A stretch of DNA of 53,566 nt from Candidatus Woesearchaeota archaeon (lineage in GTDB: Archaea; Nanobdellota; Nanobdellia; Woesearchaeales; GW2011-AR15). This document shows, piece by piece, positions 9,910 to 31,054 of this stretch. The notes beneath the pieces were generated by a model that ran no database searches, was not told where the DNA came from, and saw only the letters and a program-made list of their open reading frames with translations. Every line of letters begins with the position of its first letter. Position 1 is the stretch's first letter. The stretch is taken from contig JAFGRO010000012.1 in NCBI GenBank assembly GCA_016935095.1, positions 1-53,566 on the forward strand, read 5' to 3'. Both the position numbers and the translations under genes were made by a program.

Positions 9910-11332
9910 ATGAAAGTATATAATACACTTACAAGGAAAAAAGAAGAATTAAAGCCAATCCAAGAAGGTGTTGTGAGCATATATACTTGCGGGCCAAACA
10001 AAGTTTTTTAATTAAAATTTTGGGCATGCCGTTTATAACTATGCTCACATAGGCAACTGGAGGAGCTTTATATTCTCAGATTTACTTAGAAGATACTTAA
10101 AATTCAAAGGCTATGAAGTTAAGCATGTGATGAATATTACAGATGTTGATGACAAGACAATCCGCGATTCAAAAAAAGAAGGAATCTCTTTAAAAGAATT
10201 TACTGAAAGATATACAAAATATTTCTTTGATGATATGGATACATTAAACATTGAAAGAGTTGAGTTCTATCCAAAAGCAACTGAAACAATAACAGAGATG
10301 ACAGGTATTGTAAAGACATTAATGGATAAAGGGTATGGCTATAAAAGCGAGGACGGCTCAATTTATTATAAAGTCTCAAAATTCAATGATTACGGAAAAC
10401 TGTCTAAAATTAAATTTGATGACCTTAAAGCAGGCGCTCGTGTCAAGCAAGATGAATATGAAAAAGAGTCTGCAAATGATTTTGCATTATGGAAAGGATA
10501 TGAAGAATCAGATGGGGATGTTTTCTGGGAAACTGAACTCGGAAAAGGACGTCCTGGATGGCATATTGAATGCTCTGCAATGTCTATGAAATTTCTGGGA
10601 GAGACTTTTGACATTCATACGGGCGGCATTGATTTAATATTTCCGCATCATGAAAATGAAATAGCCCAGAGCGAGGCCTGCACAGGAAAGAAATTTGTAA
10701 ATTACTGGATGCACTGCGAGCATTTGCTTGTTGATAATGCAAAGATGTCTAAGAGCAAAGGAAATTTCTTTATCTTAAAAGATATTCTTGAAAAAGGCTA
10801 TTATCCTAAATCTATTAGATATTTATTATTGGCAACACACTATCGCCAGAAATTAAATTTCACATTTAAAGGCTTGGAAGCAGCTGAGCAGGTGATCCAG
10901 AGGTTTAAAGAATTCTTATTAAAATTAAAATCTGTTAATTCAAAACAAGACAATCCTGAAATTAAAGAAATAATAATGCAGGCAAAACAGAAATTTGAAG
11001 GGGCAATGGATGATGACCTTAATATAAGTGAAGGGTTGGCACAGATATTTGAATTCATGAAAGAAATAAATAAATTAATTGCTGAAAACAAATTAAGCAG
11101 GGAAAATGCTCTGGAAGTTTTTAACCTGATGATGGAATTTGATAAGGTTCTCGGCATTTTAGAATTCAAAGAAGAAGAAATTCCCGAAGAAATAACTGAT
11201 TTAGCACAAAAACGCCTTGAGGCAAGAAACAACAAAGACTGGCAAACAGCAGATAAACTAAGGGATGAAATAAATAAAAGAGGATATTCTGTTGATGATT
11301 CTAAAGAGGGTTATGTGATAAAGAAGACTTAA
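9910..11332 (+). CDS. cysS: Cysteinyl-tRNA synthetase, frame interrupted by a 31-nt insertion
   Basis: Class I synthetase charging tRNA-Cys. The frame from the ATG at 9910 gives [20 protein letters not shown] and then VVSIYTCGP, the correct CysRS N-terminus, but hits TAA at 10009-10011. The rest continues from about 10029 in another frame with [13 protein letters not shown] and runs to 11332, including zinc-ligand regions ([22 protein letters not shown]) and the KMSKSKGN loop. Removing 31 nt (9998-10028) joins CGP to [10 protein letters not shown] exactly and gives 463 codons, the usual length. A product started at 10127 would lack the first zinc Cys and the HIGN motif and could not charge tRNA. 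So the gene is dead, misassembled, or repaired at RNA or translation level. Confidence 0.85.
9998..10028 (+). other. 31-nt hairpin-forming insertion in cysS
   Basis: The segment forms an 8-bp stem AAAGTTTT/AAAATTTT (10000-10007 with 10014-10021, one G-U) with a 6-nt loop TTAATT. It is flanked by further complementarity: GCC (9993-9995) with GGC (10023-10025) and GCGG (9989-9992) with CCGT (10029-10032, one G-U), leaving 3-nt bulges AAC and ATG. GGGC occurs on both sides exactly 31 nt apart (9991, 10022). Removing 9998-10028 recreates the codons for G-P-T-V-Y-N. Confidence 0.75.
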
Positions 11333-12010: not shown

Positions 12011-14440
12011 TTATTTTTTTATTCCAATCTTAACTTCTTCATTTACTTTAATCTTGCCTTTGCCGAAAACAATGTCTTTAGCTTTGGTTGTTGATGTTAT
12101 GTCTGAAAGAACAAGTTCAATTAATTTTCTTGTTTTATCATCGCAGTCAATTATTAACTCGCTTAATTCTGTCTTCAATGACAGCTGGCTGTCACTCTTG
12201 AATTTTCTTACTGCTGAGATTATGTCAACGGCATGGTCTCCTGCATTCTCTGCTTTTTTATCAATATATGATTCATTACATTCAGGCCAGTCTGAATTAT
12301 GTATGCTTTTTTTATTTTCAATTTTATCAAAATAAAGATGATAAATCTCTTCTGTAATGAACGGCATTATCGGCGCCATCAGCTTTAAAATATTTAATAT
12401 GCCTTCATACAAGCCGAACTGTGCGCTTTCTCTTGCACCTTCGTGGTATTTGTCAGGATTATATAATCTGTCTTTAACAATCTCAAGATACTGGTCGCAA
12501 AAAACATTCCAGAAAAAATTCTCTGTCTCTGACTTTACTTTGGAATATTCATATTCATCAAAACTCTCAGTGCATTTCTTTATTAATTTCTGTAATTTTG
12601 AAATAAGCCATTTGTCCATAGTTTCAAGTTCATGTCTTTCATATTTGAAATCCTGCAAGTGCATTATTGCAAACTTAGAGGCATTCCAGAGCTTGGTAGT
12701 CATTTTTTTTCCTGTAACAAGGTCTTTTTCTTGGAAGGGAAGGTCTTCTCCGAGTTTTGAGCCAGCTGCCCAGAACCTGAGGCAGTCAGCAGAGTATTTC
12801 TCAATCATGTCCTGTGGGGCAATAGTATTGCCTTTGCTTTTAGACATTTTTTTGCCGTGAGGGTCTAAAGCAAACCCGCTGATCATGATGTTTTTCCATG
12901 GGTTTTTATTGTAATGCAGCTGTGATTTTACCATTGTGTTAAACAGCCAGAATGTGATTATGTCATGTGCCTGCGGCCTTAAGTCCATTGGAAACAGTTT
13001 TTTATAAAATGGTTTGCCTTTCATTAGTTCAACTGCCAGCTGCGGACTTAATGAAGAAGTTGCCCATGTGTCAAGAACATCTTTTTCAGCAATAAACTCA
13101 TTATGCCCGCATTTGGGGCATTTTTTTACAGGAGGCTTATCTTCAGTCGGGTCAACTGGAAGGTCTTTTATATCTGCAAGGACAGCTTCATCGCATTTTT
13201 TACAGTACCAAACCGGAAAAGGAATACCAAAATGCCTTTGCCTTGAAATGCACCAGTCCCATTGCAGTCCATATATCCAGTGGTCTAATCTTATGCGCAT
13301 ATGTTCAGGGAACCATTTCATTGCCGCTCCAGCTTCTAAAAATTTGTCTTTTAAGTCAAGGTAGCGGATAAACCATTGTTTAGTGTTCATTATTTCAATG
13401 GGTGTGCCGCATCTTTCATGCACATTGACTGTATGCTTTAACGGCTCCTGTTTTATGAGCAGATTATTTGCTTTCAGGTCATCAATAATAGCATGCCTTG
13501 CTTCCTCAATTTTCATCCCTTCATATTTACCGGATAATTTATTCATCTTTCCGTCTTTAGTAATAATCATTCTTAAATCAAGGTTATGGGCTTTATAATG
13601 CTCAATATCATCCTGATCCCCAAAAGTGCAGCACATTAAAATTCCGGTTCCTTTTTCAGGATCAGCTTTCTCGCTTGGAATAATCTCAACCCAGAGGTCA
13701 TACAAAGGCACTTTTGCTTTTTTTCCGAATAACTGCTTGTATCTTTTATCATCCGGATGGGCAAATATGGCAACACACGCTCCCAGAAGTTCAGGCCTTG
13801 TGGTTGCAATAATTAGATCCTGTCCATTTTCAAGCTTGAATATAATATCATTAAAATAACTCTTAAGGTCTTTATCCTCTAACTCTACTTGGGCAATGGC
13901 TGTCTGGCATTCAGGGCACCACATTGTAGGAGCCTCTTTTCTGAATTCACGGCCATCTTTATACAGGTCAATAAATGATTTCTGGGATATCTTCCTGCAA
14001 TGATCATTTATAGTAGAGTAAAAAATAGAAAAATCACAGCTTACACCTATATTTTTCCAGTCCTGCACAAAATCCGGCCTTATTTTTTTCAGTGTTTTTA
14101 AGCATAGCTTAATAAACTCTTCACGTTTCATATCTTTGCTTTTAACATTATTTATCCTTTCAACCAGCCTTTCAGTTGCAAGGCCGTTGTCATCTGTGCC
14201 ATACGGATAAAATACATTAAATCCTTTCATACGCTTATACCTGGCAAGAAAATCCTGCTGTGAATATGAAAATGAATGGCCGAGATGCATCTTTCCTGAA
14301 ACAGTCGGCGGAGGAGTATCTATTGAATATATCTCTTTATCAGATTTCTGGTCAAAAGCATAAATTAGCTCTTTTTCCCAATATGAACTCCATTTTTTTT
14401 CAGCTTCTTTTGCATTATAATTTTTTGGAAGTTGCATCAT
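12011..14440 (-). CDS. valS: Valyl-tRNA synthetase
   Basis: 809 residues. Class Ia synthetase that charges tRNA-Val and edits Thr. Visible: IDTPPPTVSGKMHLGHSFSY with the HIGH-type motif HLGH, PYGTDDNGLATERLVE, the editing (CP1) region with ATTRPELLGACVAIFAHPDD, zinc-binding Cys pairs (MWCPECQTAIAQ; CKKCDEAV; KKCPKCGHNE), and the KMSKSKGN loop. The PPPTVSG form and length fit archaeal ValRS. The start MM at 14440/14437 follows GAGGT. The gene looks intact, in contrast to cysS. It converges with the membrane protein gene at 11353. Confidence 0.95.
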   Translation of the reverse strand: MMQLPKNYNAKEAEKKWSSYWEKELIYAFDQKSDKEIYSIDTPPPTVSGKMHLGHSFSYSQQDFLARYKRMKGFNVFYPYGTDDNGLATERLVERINNVKSKDMKREEFIKLCLKTLKKIRPDFVQDWKNIGVSCDFSIFYSTINDHCRKISQKSFIDLYKDGREFRKEAPTMWCPECQTAIAQVELEDKDLKSYFNDIIFKLENGQDLIIATTRPELLGACVAIFAHPDDKRYKQLFGKKAKVPLYDLWVEIIPSEKADPEKGTGILMCCTFGDQDDIEHYKAHNLDLRMIITKDGKMNKLSGKYEGMKIEEARHAIIDDLKANNLLIKQEPLKHTVNVHERCGTPIEIMNTKQWFIRYLDLKDKFLEAGAAMKWFPEHMRIRLDHWIYGLQWDWCISRQRHFGIPFPVWYCKKCDEAVLADIKDLPVDPTEDKPPVKKCPKCGHNEFIAEKDVLDTWATSSLSPQLAVELMKGKPFYKKLFPMDLRPQAHDIITFWLFNTMVKSQLHYNKNPWKNIMISGFALDPHGKKMSKSKGNTIAPQDMIEKYSADCLRFWAAGSKLGEDLPFQEKDLVTGKKMTTKLWNASKFAIMHLQDFKYERHELETMDKWLISKLQKLIKKCTESFDEYEYSKVKSETENFFWNVFCDQYLEIVKDRLYNPDKYHEGARESAQFGLYEGILNILKLMAPIMPFITEEIYHLYFDKIENKKSIHNSDWPECNESYIDKKAENAGDHAVDIISAVRKFKSDSQLSLKTELSELIIDCDDKTRKLIELVLSDITSTTKAKDIVFGKGKIKVNEEVKIGIKK

Positions 14441-19334: not shown

Positions 19335-22300
19335 TCATTTTTCTGATTTTGAATGGTCTTCATGGTGCTTATTTTCATGCTTTACCTTTTCTTTCTTTTT
19401 TTTATGCATAAAGAGCCCATTGAATATTCCCACAATTCCTATTAATAATGCAAATACTGCTACATACAACATTGGATTTATTCCCGGCTTTTCATCAGAT
19501 GAAGGCAGATCCGCAATTGTATTTCCTGTATCCGCAGGAGGTTGCTCTTCTTCAGGCTGGACCTCTTCTTCAATAATTTCTTCAATCTCTTTTATTTTTC
19601 CTGTTATTGCAAAATAACTGAATCCGGATGAAATGGATTTATATGAAACTGAATCATCACCGCTGCTTGGCTTTGAAGTCATTAATTCAATCCAGTTTCC
19701 ATTGCCAAATTTGAATAATCTTACACTTTCTTCATCAATTGGCTTGCCTTCAATCCATGACTTATTTACACTGAATAAAAGTTCAACTCTGCTTATATCT
19801 TCATCACTGATTCTTGTAGGTGTAATCTCTAAATACTGATAAATCTCATAACCTTCAGGTTTAGTTATTGTTTCCGGTTTTTCACTTAAAGCAGTAACCT
19901 TGATTTTTGTATCGTTAAGTTCTTTTATGAGGTAAATTGATAATTTCTTAAATGCAATATCTGTTTTTGTGATTTCCATCTCATTTAATCCGAGAGACAT
20001 TGAAGACCAAAGTCTTGTAGCACTAGTGCCTGTTGTTGAGCTTCCTCCTCCAGGAGCTGAACCGCTTGTAGCGCTGCCGCTGCTTCCTCCTGGGCTTCCG
20101 TCATCATCATTGTCTTGTGAAGCTGTTGCGGGTAACCCGTCAAGATAAGCTGAAAACTCACAATTTGGAATGATCCATTCTGTAGTGTCTGTTGTTGCAT
20201 TATAACCTATCCTTGTTGCTTCAGAAGTCCTGTCTTTACATGTGCTTGCGACAGTAACATCACCGCAGTGATATAATTGTGATGTGTTTCCGGAGATATA
20301 GACTCTGCATTCTTCAGGCCTTAACTTGTCAATAAGGTCTTCAATCTTGTCTTTGTCAGCCACAACATAGTCTGCAGTTCCCCCTCCTTGCTTATTAACA
20401 CTGCCTTTCTGGAAATGATCATCTTCGATTGTTTTTGCGTTTCCTGAAAGTGTTCTTGGTGTAACATTGATAAATGCAATTCCTGCTTTTGTTGTATTAT
20501 CAAGGAATCTTAGATGCAGGGACTCATTGTACAAAACAAGAATTCCTGCAGCAGCGCCACATGGAAGATTACCCTGAGTGAACCACTGGTCATCATGATA
20601 CATTTCAGCATTCCAACCTGAGGGCAAAGAATCAAACCTTACAATAATTCTGCAATCAGGGCAGTCTTTCTTGCTGTCTGTGCTGGCTGTAGTAAAATTA
20701 AAGCAACTGCTTATTGCTGTGTTATTGCTCCTGTCTTTTAGCTGTAGTTTGTAATAATATGTTGTCCCATTTTCAAAGTTGTAATTGATTCCTTTGGTAA
20801 CGTTTCTTGCAATTAATCCGTGTCTTTTTGTGATATGTGTGTCTGATTTATTATTAGTCTGATTACTGCATCCTGGATCAGTTCCATAAAAGAATAATGT
20901 TCCGTTTGCAGGTTCATTTGAATCATATGCTATGAATACACCATCAGGATACCTGACAACCTTTTTGCCTAATAAAGTCGGAGCTGTTGTATCTACATAA
21001 ATTGAGGATTCAACACCTAGGTTATTTTCATTACAATACCAGTCTCCGAAACAATCCGTGTCATCACATCCATAAGCCCCGTCTCCGTCATTGTCAATTT
21101 CCTGATTAAAGCAGTCCTGAACAGGAACAAATCCGAATTTCTGGAACTGCTCACAATCTGGGTCATCACTTGCTTTCATGCCGTCCTTGTCCATATCACA
21201 TTCAGGACAGAAGCAGTCCTCAAACTTAAAGTCAAACTGATCAGGTGAATAATAAGTCGGACCTAGGCTGTCTAAGATATTATCAGCATCACCGCTTGAA
21301 TTAGTTGATGTGACCATAATCCTTAAATCAGCTGATGTGTCAATCAAGGAACTGAATGAGTTCAGGTCTTCTTTATCTACTGCTACCATGCTTCCGCTGA
21401 TATCTTCACACATCATCTTCCTGAAAGTGGAAAGCTTGATCTCAGCTGCCATCCATTGACCTCCGTCACACCTGTATGCAGTTCTTGTCTCTTCAATCCC
21501 CCCATCCCATGAGCCTACATAACTAAACTTGAATTCAAATCCTGAAATATTCTGTCCAGAGTCGCTTAATCCTTTACAATTGTTTGAGTTATCTCCATCA
21601 GAATCAATATACCAATAAAACTTTGTTGACGCAGTTCCTTTTGCAAGTTTCAGCATTCCTCCATTAGACTGATCAGCGACCATCTCACCGTTGCAAATTG
21701 ATGCATTCTCAATGTTCATTACACCTACTCCGAGGGCATATACATCCTTGTCATCCTTGATATAGAATGCATTGATATCTAAATAATTTGGAACTCCTGA
21801 ATCAGAATCTGGTTCAATATCAAGAACTATAGGCGGATTGTCAATAAAGCCGCCATACATCTGGGCTGTCATTTTACCTTCACACCTGCCTGAGCGCCAT
21901 TCACATCCTGGATTTGCATTACAGACTCCTGATGATGAAATGCTGCTGTTAAAGCAGCTTGGGAAACAACGGCTATTTACAGGATCCCATGCACAATAAT
22001 TGTTATTGTCAGTACAAGCAGCAGCGCCTGAATGTCTGGTCCAGTTCATCTCGCATTCAAATGCTTTGAAATCACACCAGCTTTCCCCTGAAAAAGAATC
22101 ATTCCAGTAGGTGCATTCAGAACTGGCTATACAGTCTGTTGAATTCAATTCAAAGCACATTGTTGACATGTTTACATCACAGAATGGCTGGTATTCAATT
22201 ATCCATTGACATGTTGTCTGGTTATTGCATTGTTCCATATTATTATCATATTCCCAGCAGTCTGTCATCTTTGCAAATTTCGGGTCGCAAAAACCTTCGC

Positions 22301-25127
22301 GCCATTCGCATATAGGAGCCATTGTATCACATGTGCCTTTATCAACATCTCCAAAGCAGATTGGCTGGCATTCTTCTCTTTGCATCCATGGATCAAACCT
22401 CCACTGGCAGGAGCTGTATTCACTGCAGGACTCATTATCCATATTATCAAAACAGGAAAATACTTCTGCTTCGCACTCGCCACCAGACCACCAGATACAG
22501 TTTGAGTCACCTAGGCATCCAGATTCATCACCATCATAACTCATTTCACAGTGCATCTGGTATTCCATTGTTGCACCATCACACATCCCTTCCAGCCAGG
22601 TACATCCAGCAGTATTATTACATTCAGTGCTGTTAAATATGGAAAAACAGAGTTCAGCATGTGTCTGGTTTGTATCACAGGCCCCTCCGCTTGGAGGAAT
22701 ATTCCATTGACAATTATCAGCGAGTTCAGGTGCTTCGCATTCTGCCTGGGTTTGGCCTTCCATCCAGCATTCTGCTCCTTTTACATCACACCAGGCATCT
22801 TTGTACCATGTACAATTCACATTCAGCTCGCAAGCTGTTTCACTGTTGTCGTAAACAGCGCAGTAGCTGATATTATGTGTTGAATAGTTAGTAGGATCGC
22901 AATATCCCCATTCACTGCTTTCAATCCAGGCACAGTCATTAGCAATGCATGATTCATTTTCATAATACATCATGCAGTTTCCCATCATATCTCCGCCGCA
23001 AAATGAATCAGTCATGCACTCAGAGTCCCCGCAGTCAAAGAATCCGTCCTGGTCATTATCTATCCCGTCAAAGCATATCTCTGAATCACCTTCATTCTCA
23101 TTCTGTCTTTTACAATAACCATCTGACCATCCGCATAGATATTTTGGTTCACCACTTGAATCAAGATTTCCAGTTCCGCCTACATCACTACAGGCAGTCT
23201 CTGAATAACATTTATTGCATTCTTCAGCGCAGCTGGAAACAGTTGCAGAATCACACCATCCTTTGGTGGAATCCTCTGGATCTTTGAACCATTTACAATT
23301 AGCATTGCTTTGCAGACATGCGGTCTGCGGTTCTCCTGCCAGAGGATCTCCAATGAATGTGCATGCACCGCAATCAGAATTACAGTCACCACCTGTTTTT
23401 TTGAATTCATCTTTGGGTTTGCAGATACCTAAACCATTAGGAGCATGCGTATCGGGAACAAATTCACAGAAACCAAGAGGAGAGTCATCACAGGCAGATC
23501 TTGCATTTGTTGAAGTAACAGTCTTACCTGAGCTGTCCTGGAATTCACATGCCCAGCATACCTGGCTGCATGATTTAGCTCCTGAACCTGTTTTCATTTC
23601 ACACCACCCAAATGGCAGAGTCTTGTTTCCGGAGCTGTCACAATAATATTCCTGTATCCATTCTCCTCCTGCCTGTTCGCATTCTTTTTTATTAGTTATC
23701 TGTTTAATGTCTTCTATATCTTTATCATTCATCCTGAACCTGCACTTTGAAGAGGAATTCTCCCATTCACACGGCATAAACCAGGGAGAGCCCGCAATTT
23801 TATTGCAATTAGATTGGCTTGAGATAACATTATAATCTTCGCAAAAATACATACCTTCTCCAGGATCTTCCATATTGTCCCAGCACATTGTAGACATAGG
23901 TGCTTTTGTACAATCTGTACCGTTCCAGGCACAGCATCCTCCTAAAAACGGCACTTTATTGCAGAAATCAGAATCATTAATAAAACTGCATTTGATTCCA
24001 TCTACAATATTAGGATTTGCAGTAGAGTTCTCCATACATCCTGCTAATGTTGAATTATAAGTGCAGCCAAAAGTCTGGTTGCATCGTGTTTCATTTCTGT
24101 CAAGAATCCAGCAGTCTGGATTCATAAAGTCCTGATCAGGATCAAATCCGGCAATATTATGGTCCATAGGGTCTTTACAGAGGTTATCTCCAATATCATA
24201 AAAACAATATCCTGTATCCATACAATCTTTTTCTTTGCCGTCATGCATTGAACAGCCTGCTGTGAAATTTTCATAACACCAAGGATCATTCCAAATACAA
24301 TTTAAGCTTACATTTGCACTGGCATTCATACATAGATTTGCACCTTGATAATCCCAGTTCCAGCAGCCAGCCTGTTCGCACCAGCCAGCATTAGGGTCAT
24401 CACTTATCTTCCAATTACACTCTGTTTTATTATTGCATTGATCCTGGCTTTGGTAATCCCAGCATCCCTTCATGTCACACCATGGATCATGATACTCACA
24501 GCTTAAATTAAATTCATTATCTAAACATCCTGTTGAGTTGTAATCCCAGTTCCAGCAATTAACTTCTTCACAGAACTGCCCTGATGTGTCCCACATGCAA
24601 TCTAATGTGGAATCTTCACAATCTGTTTTAGTATTATAATTCCAGCATCCTTCTTCATAACAGTAATTTCCATTGGAATTCCATTGACAATCATCTCCTT
24701 TAAAGTCATCTGCGTTAATGCAGTTTGAATAAGAATTATATTCCCAACAACCTTTTTTATAACAGTTGTTATTAGAAGAATCCCATTGACACCCCATTGA
24801 AGTGTTATATTGTTCACACAGGGTCTGGTTCCAGAAATTCCAGCATTCCTTTTCTTCGCACCAGCCAGAAGAGGGCATGGCCTTCCACTGGCAGCTCATT
24901 CCTGAAGCAGATGCATTATTGCAGCCTGTCTGGTTCCAGAAATTCCAGCATCCTTTCTGGTTGCACCAGCTTCCCCACTGGTCTGACATCCATGTACATA
25001 AATCACTGTTCTCTTCACACCCGGTCTGGTTATCATCATATGTCCAGCATTGAACACTTGTTGCGCTTGCTATATTAATTAATGCTAAAATAAATACAGC
25101 TAAGAAAATTAATTTACTTAACTTCAT
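19335..25127 (-). CDS. Giant Cys/Trp-rich repeat surface protein with PGF-pre-PGF-like domain
   Basis: 1930 residues. Signal peptide at 1-22 (LSKLIFLAVFILALINIASA). Residues about 25-300 and again about 700-1090 are tandem units of 30-45 residues of the form GCW-x(6-12)-C-x(5-8)-C-x-W-x(5-10)-WC, for example GCWNFWNQTGCNN and GCWDYQSQDQCNNKTECNWK. MopE-like segments (CFDGIDNDQDGFFDCGDSEC; NQEIDNDGDGAYGCDD) follow. Residues about 1760-1840 match the archaeal PGF-pre-PGF domain, ending SISSGFSYFAITGK. A membrane segment (about 1883-1905) and a Lys/His-rich tail close the protein; no PGF-CTERM motif is visible. GGGAGG precedes the start. Probably a disulfide-hardened cell-surface protein (inference). 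Confidence 0.85.
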   Translation of the reverse strand: MKLSKLIFLAVFILALINIASATSVQCWTYDDNQTGCEENSDLCTWMSDQWGSWCNQKGCWNFWNQTGCNNASASGMSCQWKAMPSSGWCEEKECWNFWNQTLCEQYNTSMGCQWDSSNNNCYKKGCWEYNSYSNCINADDFKGDDCQWNSNGNYCYEEGCWNYNTKTDCEDSTLDCMWDTSGQFCEEVNCWNWDYNSTGCLDNEFNLSCEYHDPWCDMKGCWDYQSQDQCNNKTECNWKISDDPNAGWCEQAGCWNWDYQGANLCMNASANVSLNCIWNDPWCYENFTAGCSMHDGKEKDCMDTGYCFYDIGDNLCKDPMDHNIAGFDPDQDFMNPDCWILDRNETRCNQTFGCTYNSTLAGCMENSTANPNIVDGIKCSFINDSDFCNKVPFLGGCCAWNGTDCTKAPMSTMCWDNMEDPGEGMYFCEDYNVISSQSNCNKIAGSPWFMPCEWENSSSKCRFRMNDKDIEDIKQITNKKECEQAGGEWIQEYYCDSSGNKTLPFGWCEMKTGSGAKSCSQVCWACEFQDSSGKTVTSTNARSACDDSPLGFCEFVPDTHAPNGLGICKPKDEFKKTGGDCNSDCGACTFIGDPLAGEPQTACLQSNANCKWFKDPEDSTKGWCDSATVSSCAEECNKCYSETACSDVGGTGNLDSSGEPKYLCGWSDGYCKRQNENEGDSEICFDGIDNDQDGFFDCGDSECMTDSFCGGDMMGNCMMYYENESCIANDCAWIESSEWGYCDPTNYSTHNISYCAVYDNSETACELNVNCTWYKDAWCDVKGAECWMEGQTQAECEAPELADNCQWNIPPSGGACDTNQTHAELCFSIFNSTECNNTAGCTWLEGMCDGATMEYQMHCEMSYDGDESGCLGDSNCIWWSGGECEAEVFSCFDNMDNESCSEYSSCQWRFDPWMQREECQPICFGDVDKGTCDTMAPICEWREGFCDPKFAKMTDCWEYDNNMEQCNNQTTCQWIIEYQPFCDVNMSTMCFELNSTDCIASSECTYWNDSFSGESWCDFKAFECEMNWTRHSGAAACTDNNNYCAWDPVNSRCFPSCFNSSISSSGVCNANPGCEWRSGRCEGKMTAQMYGGFIDNPPIVLDIEPDSDSGVPNYLDINAFYIKDDKDVYALGVGVMNIENASICNGEMVADQSNGGMLKLAKGTASTKFYWYIDSDGDNSNNCKGLSDSGQNISGFEFKFSYVGSWDGGIEETRTAYRCDGGQWMAAEIKLSTFRKMMCEDISGSMVAVDKEDLNSFSSLIDTSADLRIMVTSTNSSGDADNILDSLGPTYYSPDQFDFKFEDCFCPECDMDKDGMKASDDPDCEQFQKFGFVPVQDCFNQEIDNDGDGAYGCDDTDCFGDWYCNENNLGVESSIYVDTTAPTLLGKKVVRYPDGVFIAYDSNEPANGTLFFYGTDPGCSNQTNNKSDTHITKRHGLIARNVTKGINYNFENGTTYYYKLQLKDRSNNTAISSCFNFTTASTDSKKDCPDCRIIVRFDSLPSGWNAEMYHDDQWFTQGNLPCGAAAGILVLYNESLHLRFLDNTTKAGIAFINVTPRTLSGNAKTIEDDHFQKGSVNKQGGGTADYVVADKDKIEDLIDKLRPEECRVYISGNTSQLYHCGDVTVASTCKDRTSEATRIGYNATTDTTEWIIPNCEFSAYLDGLPATASQDNDDDGSPGGSSGSATSGSAPGGGSSTTGTSATRLWSSMSLGLNEMEITKTDIAFKKLSIYLIKELNDTKIKVTALSEKPETITKPEGYEIYQYLEITPTRISDEDISRVELLFSVNKSWIEGKPIDEESVRLFKFGNGNWIELMTSKPSSGDDSVSYKSISSGFSYFAITGKIKEIEEIIEEEVQPEEEQPPADTGNTIADLPSSDEKPGINPMLYVAVFALLIGIVGIFNGLFMHKKKKEKVKHENKHHEDHSKSEK

Positions 25128-25394: not shown

Positions 25395-25685
25395 ATGAAA
25401 AAATACCCTAAGCTAGTACAGGCAGACAAGCGCGGCCAGATAGTTATCCCCAAAGAGATAAGAGAAGAGCTTGATATTGATGAAACTACTGGATTTATTG
25501 TTTATTCTATTTCTGATGAGGGCATTTTATTAAAAAAAATCCAGCCAGAAGAACTTGCAGATAATGATCCTGTTATTAATAAGATCAAAGAAAAATCCGC
25601 AAAACTAAAAATAAATCCGAAAAACATTGACAAAACAATTCAGGATTATAAAAAAATAAAAAAAGGAAAGCTTGATATAATATGA
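25395..25685 (+). CDS. AbrB/MazE-type (SpoVT-AbrB) DNA-binding regulator
   Basis: 96 residues. The N-terminal swapped-hairpin DNA-binding domain is clear: KLVQADKRGQIVIPKEIREE, then LDIDETTGFIVYSISDEGIL. A charged helical tail follows. Such proteins act as transition-state regulators or antitoxins; no toxin is adjacent. Its TGA overlaps the ATG of the 1790-residue surface protein by 4 nt, so regulator and surface protein are co-translated. Palindromes upstream are the likely binding sites. The family is firm, the regulatory target is inferred from position. Confidence 0.85.
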   Translation: MKKYPKLVQADKRGQIVIPKEIREELDIDETTGFIVYSISDEGILLKKIQPEELADNDPVINKIKEKSAKLKINPKNIDKTIQDYKKIKKGKLDII

Positions 25686-28600
25686 ACAATATAGCAAAAC
25701 TACAGACAAGGAGAATAACTTTCTTCTTAATATTGTTAGCTTTAATCCTTTTTATCAATAGCATGTATGTTCTCAGCGGACTAGGGGATGACAATGACTC
25801 AAATAAAACAGAATGCGATAATTATTTAGGCATGGTATGCGATGGAGTTTCATGTTATAATTCAACATGGACCTGGGAATATCTAAATGATGGAGAATAC
25901 TATTCAAGTTGCTGCGGTGATGATTCCAGTGAATTCTATACAAACAGGTCAGCGGATTCTTCCATGGACAATAGTTATTCATCTTTAGCAGCAGACAGGG
26001 CCTGTTGTGATAATGCCAATGACTGCATAGATGAAGGTATATGTTACAACAGTACGGATAGTGTTGATGCAGATAGTGATAGTGATTATGATTATTGTTA
26101 CCAGGGAATATGGTTTGACTGCAGTTCAGATTTACAATGCTCTGAAGGATATAATTGTCTAAGCAATGACTGCGTCGATATTACTTCTCCTGTAAATCCA
26201 AGATTATGGGCAATTTCAGATATTACAACCTCTTCAACTGAAGATATTATTGGCTATTTAAATGAATCAGGCATGAATGTAAGTGTTGATGTAGTCAGTG
26301 AATCATTTGAAGTTGCTCATTATTATGACTACACTATAATCTCTTCAGGATATATCTGGCAAACAACCACAACTACTTCTAAATTAAATGGTTCAAACAA
26401 GATAACTATTCCTGACACTTTCACTAATAAAAACAATTTTACATCCGGAAGATATATAGAATTGTCAAACCATAATAAAACCTATTTTTCCAGGTATCAC
26501 ATAAACAGGCAGGATGATATTGGAAATGAACTGCAGCTTAATCTTAGTGAGAATCTTGAAAGTGATGTTCCAATCGGCACTGTTGTAAGAGTATATAACA
26601 GCAGCTATCCAAGCGGCTGGTTTAATGTAACAATAAGTCTATTTTCCGGAAACAATACAATTTCAGTACAGGGCAAAGATAATCAAGATAATGAAGGCTC
26701 TGCATCATATCTATATATAACATATGATATATCTGACCCTGAATTTAATCTGTCAATGATTGAATCTCCTACAGGTACAAGATTAATAAGTTTTAATGTA
26801 ATGGATAATTACCAGGTAAATATTTCAAGCCTGTCTGTTAATGTAACACTGGGTATATCTTCTTATTTGTATACATATAACAATAATATAAGCTGCAGCG
26901 GCCAAAGTAAATTATATACCTGTAATTTGAGTTTTGCACAGGATGAGGGAAGCTATAATTTAACATTTAATGTTGATGATTTTATTGGCAGGACCAATAC
27001 AAGTTATTTTAATAATTTTACTCTTGATGAAAATATTGAATTTAATCTGGAGGTAAATGATAGCGGGGAAATAACAGCAAACAAGAATTTAAGCGCTATC
27101 TGGACAGAATATACAGATTCAATAACGAGCCTTGATCATTATGAGTATGCAGTTGGCATTGCAGTTTATCCAAATTCAGGATGGAATAATCTGATTGAAT
27201 GGACAAATACAACTTCAAATAGTGTAACTACACAGGAGCTTGATCTTGTTCACGGGCAGGTATATTATTTTAATGTAAGAGTATTAAATGATGCGGGAAT
27301 CTACAGCAATGTTTCTTCAAGTGACGGTATTGTATATATAGATAATACTCCTCCCCTAATGTCCTCACTCCTCGATTCTGGGGCGTATACAAGCACAAAC
27401 ACTGAATTATATGCAAGATGGAATGCAACAGATGAAGAATCAGGCATATCTGAATATGAGATTGCAATAGGCACTGCTCCTTATCCTCAGACAGGCTGGT
27501 ATACTACTCTTCAGGAAACAGTCTCAGGCAGCATAACTGAAAAGACATATACAGAACTTGACCTTGAGCAAAACCGGACTTATTATTTCACTGTAAGGGC
27601 AAAAAACGGGTATGGAGCATGGTCTCAAAGGAATTCCTCAAACGGAATTACAGTAGATATAACAAGCCCCGGCGGCGGAGATATTAATTATACTGCAGGA
27701 ACATATACAACAAATATAGTTACTTTAAACTTTTCCCAGGGCCAGGATAATGAATCAGGTATAAAAAATGCAGAATTATGGTATGCAAGATCAGAGTACA
27801 GCAGTAATTCATGCACAGGAAATTATCTATTTGAAAACTTTATAGCAGACGTTACCGGCACATCTGGTTATGAATATACTATGGGAAACGGTTATTGCTA
27901 TAAATTCATGTTAAGGGTTTATAATAATGCAAACCTCTCTAATGAATATTATTATTACAGTGATTTATTGAACCAGACAGTAATCGTGGATACAACACCG
28001 CCTGCGGATTTCAATATTACTGATGATGGTGCTGTCACATATGACGGGACAAGATTACATGCTGAATGGACACAGTCTTCTGACCATGAATCAGGTTTAA
28101 ACCGTTATGAATATAGGATCCAATATACATTCAACAATGGCCCCAGAATAAATTTAATCAACTGGACAAATATCGGATTAACAACATCAATTACAGAATA
28201 CTTTGACCTGAACCACTCTAATTTATCACATCAGTATAAATATTATTTTGATGTCAGGGCAATTAGTAATATCGGGTTAAATACAACAAAGTCAAGCGAT
28301 GGCATAATATACATGGACATTTATCCGCCTCAAACAGCCTTGTTAAGTGTTGGAGAAGATACAACTTATTCTTACACCAGTGAAAATTTTGGGAATATTA
28401 CAATTAATGTATCAGGAGAGCAATATATGAAATGTGTTTATTCAGAAGATGATATTGATTATTCTGATTCAGAAGAGGAATGCACAACATATGGAAGCAT
28501 AGCATCATGCCTGATTAATCTTTCAGGGACAGGAAATTATACTTATCATATTATATGCAGTGATATCCACGGAAACGGCCAGGATTTTGATGAGAATATT

Positions 28601-31054
28601 GATGTGAGTTTTTATGCCTATGTCTTTGATTCAATTGTGCAGTCTGTAAGCCTGAGCTCAGAAGAGGTTATAAGCGTGAAATATACAAATGCGTCTGGTT
28701 ATCTTTATTCACAGGGCTCTTCAAGCACAGAGATAAATTCCACTATATTCAGCAATTATCTCTACTATGTTAAATTTGCAAATAATGCATCAAAGTTTAG
28801 TGCAACTTTACAAAATGTAAATATAAGCGATAATCCGTTAATTAATATTACAGCAAAGTATGTTAATGTATCGCAGCTGAATAACTCTAATATTAGTCTT
28901 GGCCCGGCTGAAAGATATATCCCTAGAGATGCTTATGCAATTGAAATACAGGATAATTTCAACGGGACTTATCTTGCTGAGTTTAATTATACAAATATAA
29001 ATCTAAGCAATGAAAATGCACTGATGATTTACAAGCTTGGGTTTGATTTTTCAAATAACCAGACAAATTATACTGATTATACTTTGTATTCTGGTGTAAC
29101 AAGAGATGCAGCCAATAACATTGTTTCAGCTTCAATTAATGGTTTCTCGCTGTTTGTTCTTGTGGAAGACTCTCAAATGCAGGAAACATGCGGAGACGGC
29201 ATTGATAATGATGGTGATGGTTCTGTAGATGAAGGGTGTTCATCTCCCGGAGGAAATCCTGGAGGAAGTTCAAGCAGTTCCAGCAGTGATGATGAATCTA
29301 CTTCAAGAAGGTCATCCGGAGGTCCTCCTGTATTTGAGACATGTTATGACAATGAGCTTAACCAGGATGAGACAGATGTAGACTGCGGCGGAATCTGTGC
29401 CGGCTCAAGAATCCTGAAAAAGTGTGCTCTTGGAAAAAACTGTGAAATTGATACTGATTGTGGAAGCAGCCACTGTAATCCTGGAAGCAAAGTATGTTAT
29501 GTTCCTTCATGCAGCGATGGTTTAAAAAATCAGGATGAAGCCGGAATAGACTGTGGTGGCCAGTGTGATGCGTGCCCAACATGTAATGATGGAATACAGA
29601 ACCAGGGAGAAGAGGGAATAGATTGTGGCGGCCCGTGTGATGCATGTTTAACATGTAATGATGGAATACAGAACCAGGGAGAGACAGGAATAGACTGCGG
29701 CGGTTCTTGCAGGGCATGTGCAACATGTGATGACAACCTTAGAAACCAGGGAGAAGAGGACATAGACTGCGGCGGTCCGTGCGGACCATGCCCTGAGATA
29801 GAAGAGCCTGCACAATTACCTGTTTTCATCCCGATTTTATTTGGAATAATAATGCTCGGGATAACAATTACAGGATTATATCTGATGCAGGTTTCAAAGA
29901 CAAAAGCAAAACAGGCACAACCTGAAGAAGCAGTTCCAACAGGTTTAGAAGAAGAAGAGATTAAACCGGAAAAACCACTAAAAAAAGAAATAAATCTGAA
30001 AAGAGAAATAACTCATCCGGTTCATCCAGTTGAGATTACAGATGCAATGTTACTGAAATTGCAGAACTATGCAAACACACTCGCGATGCATGAAAATTCA
30101 AAAGACAAAATCAGATTAGAGCTCGATTCACTCGGATGGCCTGAATATATTGTAGATATAGTAATTACAAATATAGGAGATGTTGAATATATGAAAAAAC
30201 TATTTGAGCTCCAGGATTACATTGATCAGCACCTAAAAGGATTTACCCATGATGAAATAAGGAAAAGACTTAGACCTTTAAAATGGCAGGATAAAGATGT
30301 TGATTTGGTTTTAAATAAAGCAAATATTGTTTCAAGTAAGGATTCTCTTAATAAGTATATCCTGTATCAACTAGTAAAGGATATTGAAACTGACAAAATT
30401 GAAGATACTCTTTTTAATGCAGGCTGGCCGAAATCTATAGTTAATACAGCTATATTTAAACTCAAAACAAGGATTAAATCCGACCAGAAAGAGATTGAAG
30501 GGTTATTAATGGAACTATTTAACAGGGGCATGTCTGAAAAACAGGCAAAGCAGAAATTACTGGAAAAAGGATATAGTGAAGATGTTGTTGATTTGTTGAT
30601 TTTCACTAAATTCAGTGAAAAAAAGCATTTAGAGGAATTAAGAGATTATATAAATATGAGATTAATAAAAGGCGATAAAAGCACGAATATTAAAAAGACA
30701 CTGGTAAATGCGAGATGGGGAATTGACATTATTGATGAAATTATTAATGAAAACTTCAAATCCAATGACATAAAATACCTTGTTGCACTGGATTCTTACA
30801 TAAGAGAGGCATTTGCAAAAGGTTATACTAAAAAAATAATTACAAATGACTTATTAAAGAAAAAATGGGCAGATGAGTATATTGACATGGTGATGCTTAA
30901 GGTTCATGTGATTGATGATAAGCTTGATAAAATCAAGAAATACATTAATTTAAGACTGGGCAAAGGCGATTCCAGGGAAAAGATTACTGAATTATTAGTT
31001 AGAGTTGGTTGGGGAAGAAAGATTGTTGAGGATGTTTTTGGAAATAAAAAATAA
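25682..31054 (+). CDS. Giant membrane-spanning surface protein with seven cytoplasmic GW repeats
   Basis: 1790 residues. N-terminal signal or anchor at 12-32. Cys-rich head (about 40-165). Beta-sandwich region with at least four Ig/fibronectin III-like domains (about 455-885), each opening or closing near 'DNTPP' or 'DTTPP'. A PGF-pre-PGF-like segment ends in SINGFSLFVLVEDS (about 1165). Five units of the form C-x-D-x3-NQ-x-E-x3-DCGG-x-C-x2-C (1218-1373) follow a Ser/Gly linker; two are nearly identical in DNA. A membrane segment at 1378-1400 is followed by a 390-residue cytoplasmic tail. Its last 340 residues are seven helical repeats (LxxYI...KG....I...L...GW....VD..I). It may link an outside event to the cytoplasm (inference). 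Confidence 0.85.
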   Translation: MNNIAKLQTRRITFFLILLALILFINSMYVLSGLGDDNDSNKTECDNYLGMVCDGVSCYNSTWTWEYLNDGEYYSSCCGDDSSEFYTNRSADSSMDNSYSSLAADRACCDNANDCIDEGICYNSTDSVDADSDSDYDYCYQGIWFDCSSDLQCSEGYNCLSNDCVDITSPVNPRLWAISDITTSSTEDIIGYLNESGMNVSVDVVSESFEVAHYYDYTIISSGYIWQTTTTTSKLNGSNKITIPDTFTNKNNFTSGRYIELSNHNKTYFSRYHINRQDDIGNELQLNLSENLESDVPIGTVVRVYNSSYPSGWFNVTISLFSGNNTISVQGKDNQDNEGSASYLYITYDISDPEFNLSMIESPTGTRLISFNVMDNYQVNISSLSVNVTLGISSYLYTYNNNISCSGQSKLYTCNLSFAQDEGSYNLTFNVDDFIGRTNTSYFNNFTLDENIEFNLEVNDSGEITANKNLSAIWTEYTDSITSLDHYEYAVGIAVYPNSGWNNLIEWTNTTSNSVTTQELDLVHGQVYYFNVRVLNDAGIYSNVSSSDGIVYIDNTPPLMSSLLDSGAYTSTNTELYARWNATDEESGISEYEIAIGTAPYPQTGWYTTLQETVSGSITEKTYTELDLEQNRTYYFTVRAKNGYGAWSQRNSSNGITVDITSPGGGDINYTAGTYTTNIVTLNFSQGQDNESGIKNAELWYARSEYSSNSCTGNYLFENFIADVTGTSGYEYTMGNGYCYKFMLRVYNNANLSNEYYYYSDLLNQTVIVDTTPPADFNITDDGAVTYDGTRLHAEWTQSSDHESGLNRYEYRIQYTFNNGPRINLINWTNIGLTTSITEYFDLNHSNLSHQYKYYFDVRAISNIGLNTTKSSDGIIYMDIYPPQTALLSVGEDTTYSYTSENFGNITINVSGEQYMKCVYSEDDIDYSDSEEECTTYGSIASCLINLSGTGNYTYHIICSDIHGNGQDFDENIDVSFYAYVFDSIVQSVSLSSEEVISVKYTNASGYLYSQGSSSTEINSTIFSNYLYYVKFANNASKFSATLQNVNISDNPLINITAKYVNVSQLNNSNISLGPAERYIPRDAYAIEIQDNFNGTYLAEFNYTNINLSNENALMIYKLGFDFSNNQTNYTDYTLYSGVTRDAANNIVSASINGFSLFVLVEDSQMQETCGDGIDNDGDGSVDEGCSSPGGNPGGSSSSSSSDDESTSRRSSGGPPVFETCYDNELNQDETDVDCGGICAGSRILKKCALGKNCEIDTDCGSSHCNPGSKVCYVPSCSDGLKNQDEAGIDCGGQCDACPTCNDGIQNQGEEGIDCGGPCDACLTCNDGIQNQGETGIDCGGSCRACATCDDNLRNQGEEDIDCGGPCGPCPEIEEPAQLPVFIPILFGIIMLGITITGLYLMQVSKTKAKQAQPEEAVPTGLEEEEIKPEKPLKKEINLKREITHPVHPVEITDAMLLKLQNYANTLAMHENSKDKIRLELDSLGWPEYIVDIVITNIGDVEYMKKLFELQDYIDQHLKGFTHDEIRKRLRPLKWQDKDVDLVLNKANIVSSKDSLNKYILYQLVKDIETDKIEDTLFNAGWPKSIVNTAIFKLKTRIKSDQKEIEGLLMELFNRGMSEKQAKQKLLEKGYSEDVVDLLIFTKFSEKKHLEELRDYINMRLIKGDKSTNIKKTLVNARWGIDIIDEIINENFKSNDIKYLVALDSYIREAFAKGYTKKIITNDLLKKKWADEYIDMVMLKVHVIDDKLDKIKKYINLRLGKGDSREKITELLVRVGWGRKIVEDVFGNKK

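Follow-up and report, generated by a model that had tools for sequence, protein, structure and literature searches.

Three kinds of described archaeal intron bear on the gene reported here. Archaeal pre-tRNAs carry introns at position 37/38, where the exon-intron borders form a bulge-helix-bulge (BHB) motif. The coding-sequence introns known so far from archaea, in the open literature searched, are those of cbf5 in Crenarchaeota, a BHB intron family to which one haloarchaeal 5' UTR intron can be added (PMC2738675; PMC4810243; PMC7714728). The cbf5 introns of Desulfurococcales and Sulfolobales, whose splicing was shown by cDNA (Watanabe 2002; Yokobori 2009, PMC2738675), have mostly unconventional BHBs in which cleavage falls between bulge bases two and three (PMC2738675), and they combine conserved ends with a variable interior, a patchy distribution with losses and a link to hetero-oligomeric EndA. 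Efficient cleavage of relaxed BHBs has been described only for the (alpha-beta)2 and epsilon2 forms of EndA (PMC6379350). The 5' UTR intron, that of HVO_1309 in Haloferax volcanii, has been confirmed by experiment and is a case of EndA acting on an mRNA at BHB sites (PMC7714728).

The interrupted cysS gene described here lies in a 53,566-nt stretch of DNA (the window) from a Candidatus Woesearchaeota archaeon. A first-pass annotation of the window had proposed RNA splicing of cysS with the cbf5 mRNA introns as precedent, and the literature cited above agrees with that choice. Like those introns, the cysS insert appears to be a coding-sequence intron in an unconventional BHB, with conserved ends, a variable interior, a patchy distribution with losses and, putatively, splicing of the EndA type; it differs in its gene and phylum, in an in-frame stop rule and an invariant G.A pair found in cysS, and in a host with a single alpha-type EndA. 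Like the HVO_1309 intron it would present EndA with BHB sites in an mRNA, and it differs from that intron in lying within coding sequence. Motif geometry and presumed enzymes are shared with pre-tRNA introns, whereas the host molecule is here an mRNA with protein-coding exons, the codon choice of which is constrained by the motif. It is very probable that the insert is a BHB pre-mRNA intron, excised by EndA and joined by RtcB; by the open literature searched it would represent a second intron family in archaeal protein-coding genes, almost certainly spliced by the tRNA machinery. The features of the locus are as follows.

9910 to 9997, forward strand: cysS exon 1, from the ATG to the first base of the Thr codon in CGPTVYN (29 codons plus 1 nt).
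9972 to 9981, forward strand: 5' strand of the exon-exon stem, 10 bp with 10040-10049.
9989 to 9991, forward strand: 5' strand of the outer helix, paired with 10030-10032; it requires the TGC and ACC codons, which are fixed in intron-bearing genes.
9992 to 9995, forward strand: 5' strand of the central helix, in which 9993-9995 form three Watson-Crick pairs with 10023-10025 and G9992 stands opposite A10026 as a conserved mismatch.
9996 to 9998, forward strand: 5' bulge AAA, from the fold, invariant in 28 loci; predicted cleavage 9997/9998.
9998 to 10028, forward strand: predicted BHB intron of 31 nt, ACAAAGTTTTTTAATTAAAATTTTGGGCATG, from the sequence and the same-site inserts of relatives.
9999 to 10022, forward strand: inner intron hairpin of 9 bp (9999-10007 with 10014-10022), 8 of which show compensatory change across 28 loci.
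10009 to 10011, forward strand: TAA stop in the exon 1 frame, within the intron, from the sequence and the stop rule across loci.
10023 to 10026, forward strand: 3' strand of the central helix, GGCA, from the fold and the comparison of loci.
10027 to 10029, forward strand: 3' bulge UGC, from the fold; predicted cleavage 10028/10029.
10029 to 11332, forward strand: cysS exon 2, running to the stop codon.
10030 to 10032, forward strand: 3' strand of the outer helix, paired with 9989-9991.
10040 to 10049, forward strand: 3' strand of the exon-exon stem, 10 bp with 9972-9981.

Read directly from the sequence, cysS (9910-11332, forward strand) has a sole break, the 31 nt at 9998-10028. Beyond the Pro codon of CGPTVYN, the exon 1 frame that opens with the ATG at 9910 reads N-K-V-F-stop, and the exon 2 frame is open over 10031-11332 and starts VYNYAHIGN. 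Excision of 9998-10028 yields a CysRS of 463 aa in which CGPTVY lies at residue 27, HIGN at 36 and KMSKS at 268, which bears out the earlier statement that both frames are intact and that removing 31 nt restores CGPTVYN; no alternative boundary among those tried by hand recovers Pro-Thr. Further copies of the intron are absent from the source genome at up to 3 mismatches, and an Rfam search with it returned no family, group I or other Rfam-listed intron, near its gathering score. Separate translation of the two exons, followed by assembly as a split protein, is barely credible: the long open frame of exon 2 and the in-frame stop that closes exon 1 would suit such an arrangement, but the last stop of the exon 2 frame lies within the intron and no ATG, GTG or TTG occurs before codon 32, so that HIGN would be lost, and the exact junction and the structure would be left unexplained.

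The case for a BHB intron is carried by relatives. The first step was a protein search, the recovery of which is independent of the codons flanking the site; among the first 30 related cysS genes the insert was present in two other genomes, a congener with 33 nt of diverged sequence and a member of a different genus of the same family with all 31 nt unchanged, and another congener of the source genome carries cysS without it. A pattern search in which the interior was left free matched 12 of the 353 genomes of the source's order, at one site each and always in cysS, while the reversed control of that pattern matched none of the 353. A covariance model trained on the 12 pattern loci found an insert in 21 of the 353 genomes, 318 of which gave a cysS match, and in a further 7 genomes of the class outside the order. 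An insert at the same nucleotide of cysS, 28-51 nt in length, is therefore present in 28 genomes of 21 genera and 13 families of the class; the lengths may be 0, 1 or 2 modulo 3, and CG(P/L)TVY is restored at all 28 loci. No additional insert-bearing cysS was found in a sample of the phylum, and none of 44 loci from named genomes, mostly bacterial CysRS genes, has an intron at the site.

Some candidates and loci from these searches require separate comment. Covariance matches L154, L155 and L158 were dropped, as they look like chance or in-frame coding matches; L153, L156 and L157 are intronless cysS genes; and two IMG/VR pattern matches, both within other open frames, were attributed to chance. 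The intron of L149 (G195) is 51 nt long, with its apical part enlarged and the in-frame stop relocated. L137 and L138 (G277 and G241) belong to a second, deeply divergent cysS lineage in the order, with an intron at the same nucleotide.

In favour of a sequencing or assembly error, or a pseudogene, is the state of the source genome, a draft assembly of 82 contigs. The identical nucleotide and covarying structure in 28 genomes, the exons intact and under selection, and the lack of any second CysRS or alternative route found in the source genome leave this explanation a negligible probability, and the comparative data practically refute it. Selection on the exons can be seen in exon 1, where changes fall mostly at the third codon position (1653, against 717 and 498), both exons being intact.

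For the BHB intron, the predicted RNA fold of 9970-10056 has an energy of -28 kcal/mol (z = -4.58; matched by 0 of 200 shuffles) and comprises, in order, the inner 9-bp hairpin, the AAA bulge, three GC pairs, a second 3-nt bulge, an outer helix of 3-4 bp and the 10-bp exon-exon stem. The hairpin had been put at 8 bp in the first-pass annotation, one pair too few, and the exon-exon stem was absent from its description. The exon-intron borders carry two 3-nt bulges, AAA on one strand and UGC on the other; the 3' bulge is UGC, UUC or AGC across the 28 loci, and cuts placed past the second bulge base restore CG(P/L)TVY in every one. In 28/28 loci the central helix has G.A as its fourth pair, so the element is not a strict 3-4-3 BHB. 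In the minimum-energy fold G9992 pairs instead with C10029, which gives a 3-bp centre and an AUG bulge, and cutting between the second and third bulge bases of that fold would break the cysS frame. If G9992.A10026 is taken as the fourth pair, the bulges become AAA and UGC, which places the cuts at 9997/9998 and 10028/10029, exactly the positions that restore Pro-Thr. Because position 10026 is A in all 28 loci, though an intron base is free to vary, the G.A pair, or a bulge beginning with A, is probably recognised. Two intron-bearing genes, L180 and L183, encode CGLT rather than CGPT, with a corresponding change of a C-G pair to U-G in the central helix.

Resemblance to a BHB often arises by chance and by itself proves little: a loose scan of 362 kb of the source genome found 104 BHB-like sites joining open reading frames, against 121 with a mirrored control geometry. 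Of the near-BHB shape claimed earlier, the two 3-nt bulges, three pairs and A-G mismatch hold good, whereas the shape by itself is within chance; it is the comparative evidence that lifts the cysS intron beyond it. In the 28 model-aligned loci, 95.5% of pair cells are standard (83% in shuffles) and 45 compensatory cells are observed where 11.6 are expected, with 0 of 500 shuffles reaching as many, in an alignment that was fitted to the model and so leans towards the modelled structure; pairing drops to about 50% when the partner register is slid by one base. Changes on both sides occur in 8 of the 9 inner-helix pairs. The outer and central helices show no compensatory variation and are nearly invariant because the same bases encode protein, so that the evidence there is codon choice.

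The exon codons flanking the insert are fixed as TGC-GGG-C(C/T)A-ACC. The ACC codon is found in 28/28 genes with the insert and 6/44 without (p = 1.8e-14), and GGG in 28/28 and 16/44 (p = 7e-9), both values ignoring kinship and coming from a search model that favours the codon in question. The longest exon-exon helix averages 7.9 bp in genes with the intron and 5.8 bp in those without (p = 1.3e-5, kinship ignored). Three species pairs have introns at 100% identity, against 78, 78 and 89% over the opening 150 nt of exon 2; between the source genome and G003 the identical block is the BHB element, running from the TGC codon to CCGT and ending just outside it. This looks like selection on the element and not a conversion tract.

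These exon codons also weigh on translational bypassing, in which ribosomes would take off at GGG 9991-9993, skip 31 nt and land at GGG 10022-10024. A GGGC repeat 31 nt apart had been noted earlier as suiting such a bypass, and it is indeed present at 9991 and 10022, one insert length apart in the loci, with a hairpin within the gap and a stop codon downstream of take-off. Take-off and landing codons match, but the functional protein would not be produced: the product would read CG-HA (18 loci), HS (7) or QA (3)-VY in place of the nearly universal Pro-Thr, whereas splicing always gives CG(P/L)TVY. The stop, adjacent to take-off in the T4 gene 60 bypass, sits several codons past it here, and the BHB-tuned exon codons and the exon-exon pairing would be left unexplained. 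Bypassing is accordingly a highly unlikely account of the locus.

A further regularity of the predicted introns is a stop codon in the frame of exon 1, present in 28/28, compared with 8 and 9 of 28 in the other two frames. For 21 genus representatives the count is 21/21, against 11.6 (sd 2.2, maximum 18 in 1000) under a null in which pairs were shuffled among pairs and loops among loops; the covariance model covers the loop, which introduces a mild ascertainment into this count. In the first locus set 0 of 2000 shuffles matched the stop count. The earliest 12 loci had been found without interior constraint, and the 7 class-level loci, examined after the rule had been noticed, all obey it. TAA, TAG and TGA are all used, at codon indices 1 to 9, so that it is the presence of a stop, not one sequence, that is conserved. 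Thirteen of the 28 introns have lengths of 0 modulo 3 and could be read through but for the stop; with it, unspliced messages yield only a short peptide. Comparison across the family indicates that the intron stop is under selection, and it probably serves to clear ribosomes from, or to silence, unspliced messages. The rule is also evidence that translating unspliced messages matters where transcription and translation are presumably coupled. A more elaborate proposal, tentative and rather doubtful, is that the intron is a regulated, translation-coupled switch, in which splicing competes with translation, sets CysRS output and is the reason for the intron's retention; if so, a selected stop would halt ribosomes on unspliced cysS mRNA inside the intron, and conservation of the switch would explain introns that are 100% identical where exons are only 78% identical. 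We know of no surveillance path of the ciliate kind in archaea with cysS introns. The ultra-short introns of ciliates are likewise very short with in-frame stops, which are discussed as ending translation of unspliced messages, and differ in being spliceosomal and eukaryotic (PMC5014332).

The source genome, the one checked for these genes, encodes both EndA and RtcB. A single PF01974 match corresponds to a one-subunit, alpha-type EndA of 209 aa, the closest solved relative of which is 3iey_A (E 7.6e-37), followed by 5x89 and M. jannaschii 1a79; a distant beta subunit may exist in addition. Given that relaxed-BHB cutting has been tied to the (alpha-beta)2 and epsilon2 forms, a G.A pair beside an alpha-type EndA is an oddity and counts against the proposal. 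There is one RtcB and one CysRS gene, and neither SepRS nor SepCysS scored over curated cut-offs in this genome; of the two exemptions from essentiality named in the first-pass annotation, another copy or another route, neither was found there. The same genome has a tRNA gene with a 22-nt intron (L208:17920-18014; G000:C5), called tRNA-Ser aga by ARAGORN, though the anticodon may differ, which would be a natural substrate for the same enzymes. In the proposed pathway, the transcript would fold so that the AAA and UGC bulges flank a short helix, EndA would cleave each 3-nt bulge after its second base, and RtcB would join the exons as one uninterrupted CysRS message; ribosomes on unspliced message would halt at the intron stop, leaving a peptide of about 33 aa. 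We infer cleavage, ligation and the enzymes responsible from genomes, unlike the cDNA demonstration for cbf5, and the earlier proposal of RNA splicing gains strong support from the 27 other genomes, the covariation, the restricted choice of exon codons and the fact that the genome encodes EndA and RtcB.

No cysS intron was found in the open-access literature searched. That small DPANN-type archaea have a second such family, dispersed among 13 taxonomic families and housed in the gene of an essential aminoacyl-tRNA synthetase, would mean that pre-mRNA splicing by the tRNA machinery arose or persisted outside the cbf5 lineages. Annotation pipelines will label intron-split genes like cysS broken. 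The G.A pair together with a single alpha-type EndA makes the substrate range of EndA directly testable in vitro, and intron presence or absence between sister species offers tests of intron gain and loss.

A quick maximum-likelihood tree built from 65 exon-2 proteins requires at least 16 changes to account for the pattern of presence and absence, so that the intron has often been gained or lost at one site. Intronless G303 and G188 (L156 and L169), from genera that also hold intron-bearing species, have TGC-GGG-CCA-ACC exactly as spliced; precise loss via spliced RNA is one reading of this, and a pre-insertion state the other. The idea that exon 1 was transferred between families with the intron found no support, since outside the stem exon 1 is no more alike among intron-bearing genes. 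The sister species G285 (L136) and G284 (L174), only one of which has the intron, are about 90% identical in exon 2 and about two thirds identical in exon 1, a contrast that suggests, as a lead only, recombination near the intron.

Elsewhere in the window, two adjacent giant open reading frames, at 19335-25127 (reverse strand) and 25682-31054 (forward strand), encode 1930 and 1790 aa and are possibly surface proteins; the former has no Pfam match and the latter a fibronectin type III domain only. One gene from cysS, at 12011-14440 on the reverse strand, lies an intact second class I aminoacyl-tRNA synthetase of the I/L/M/V type (809 aa).
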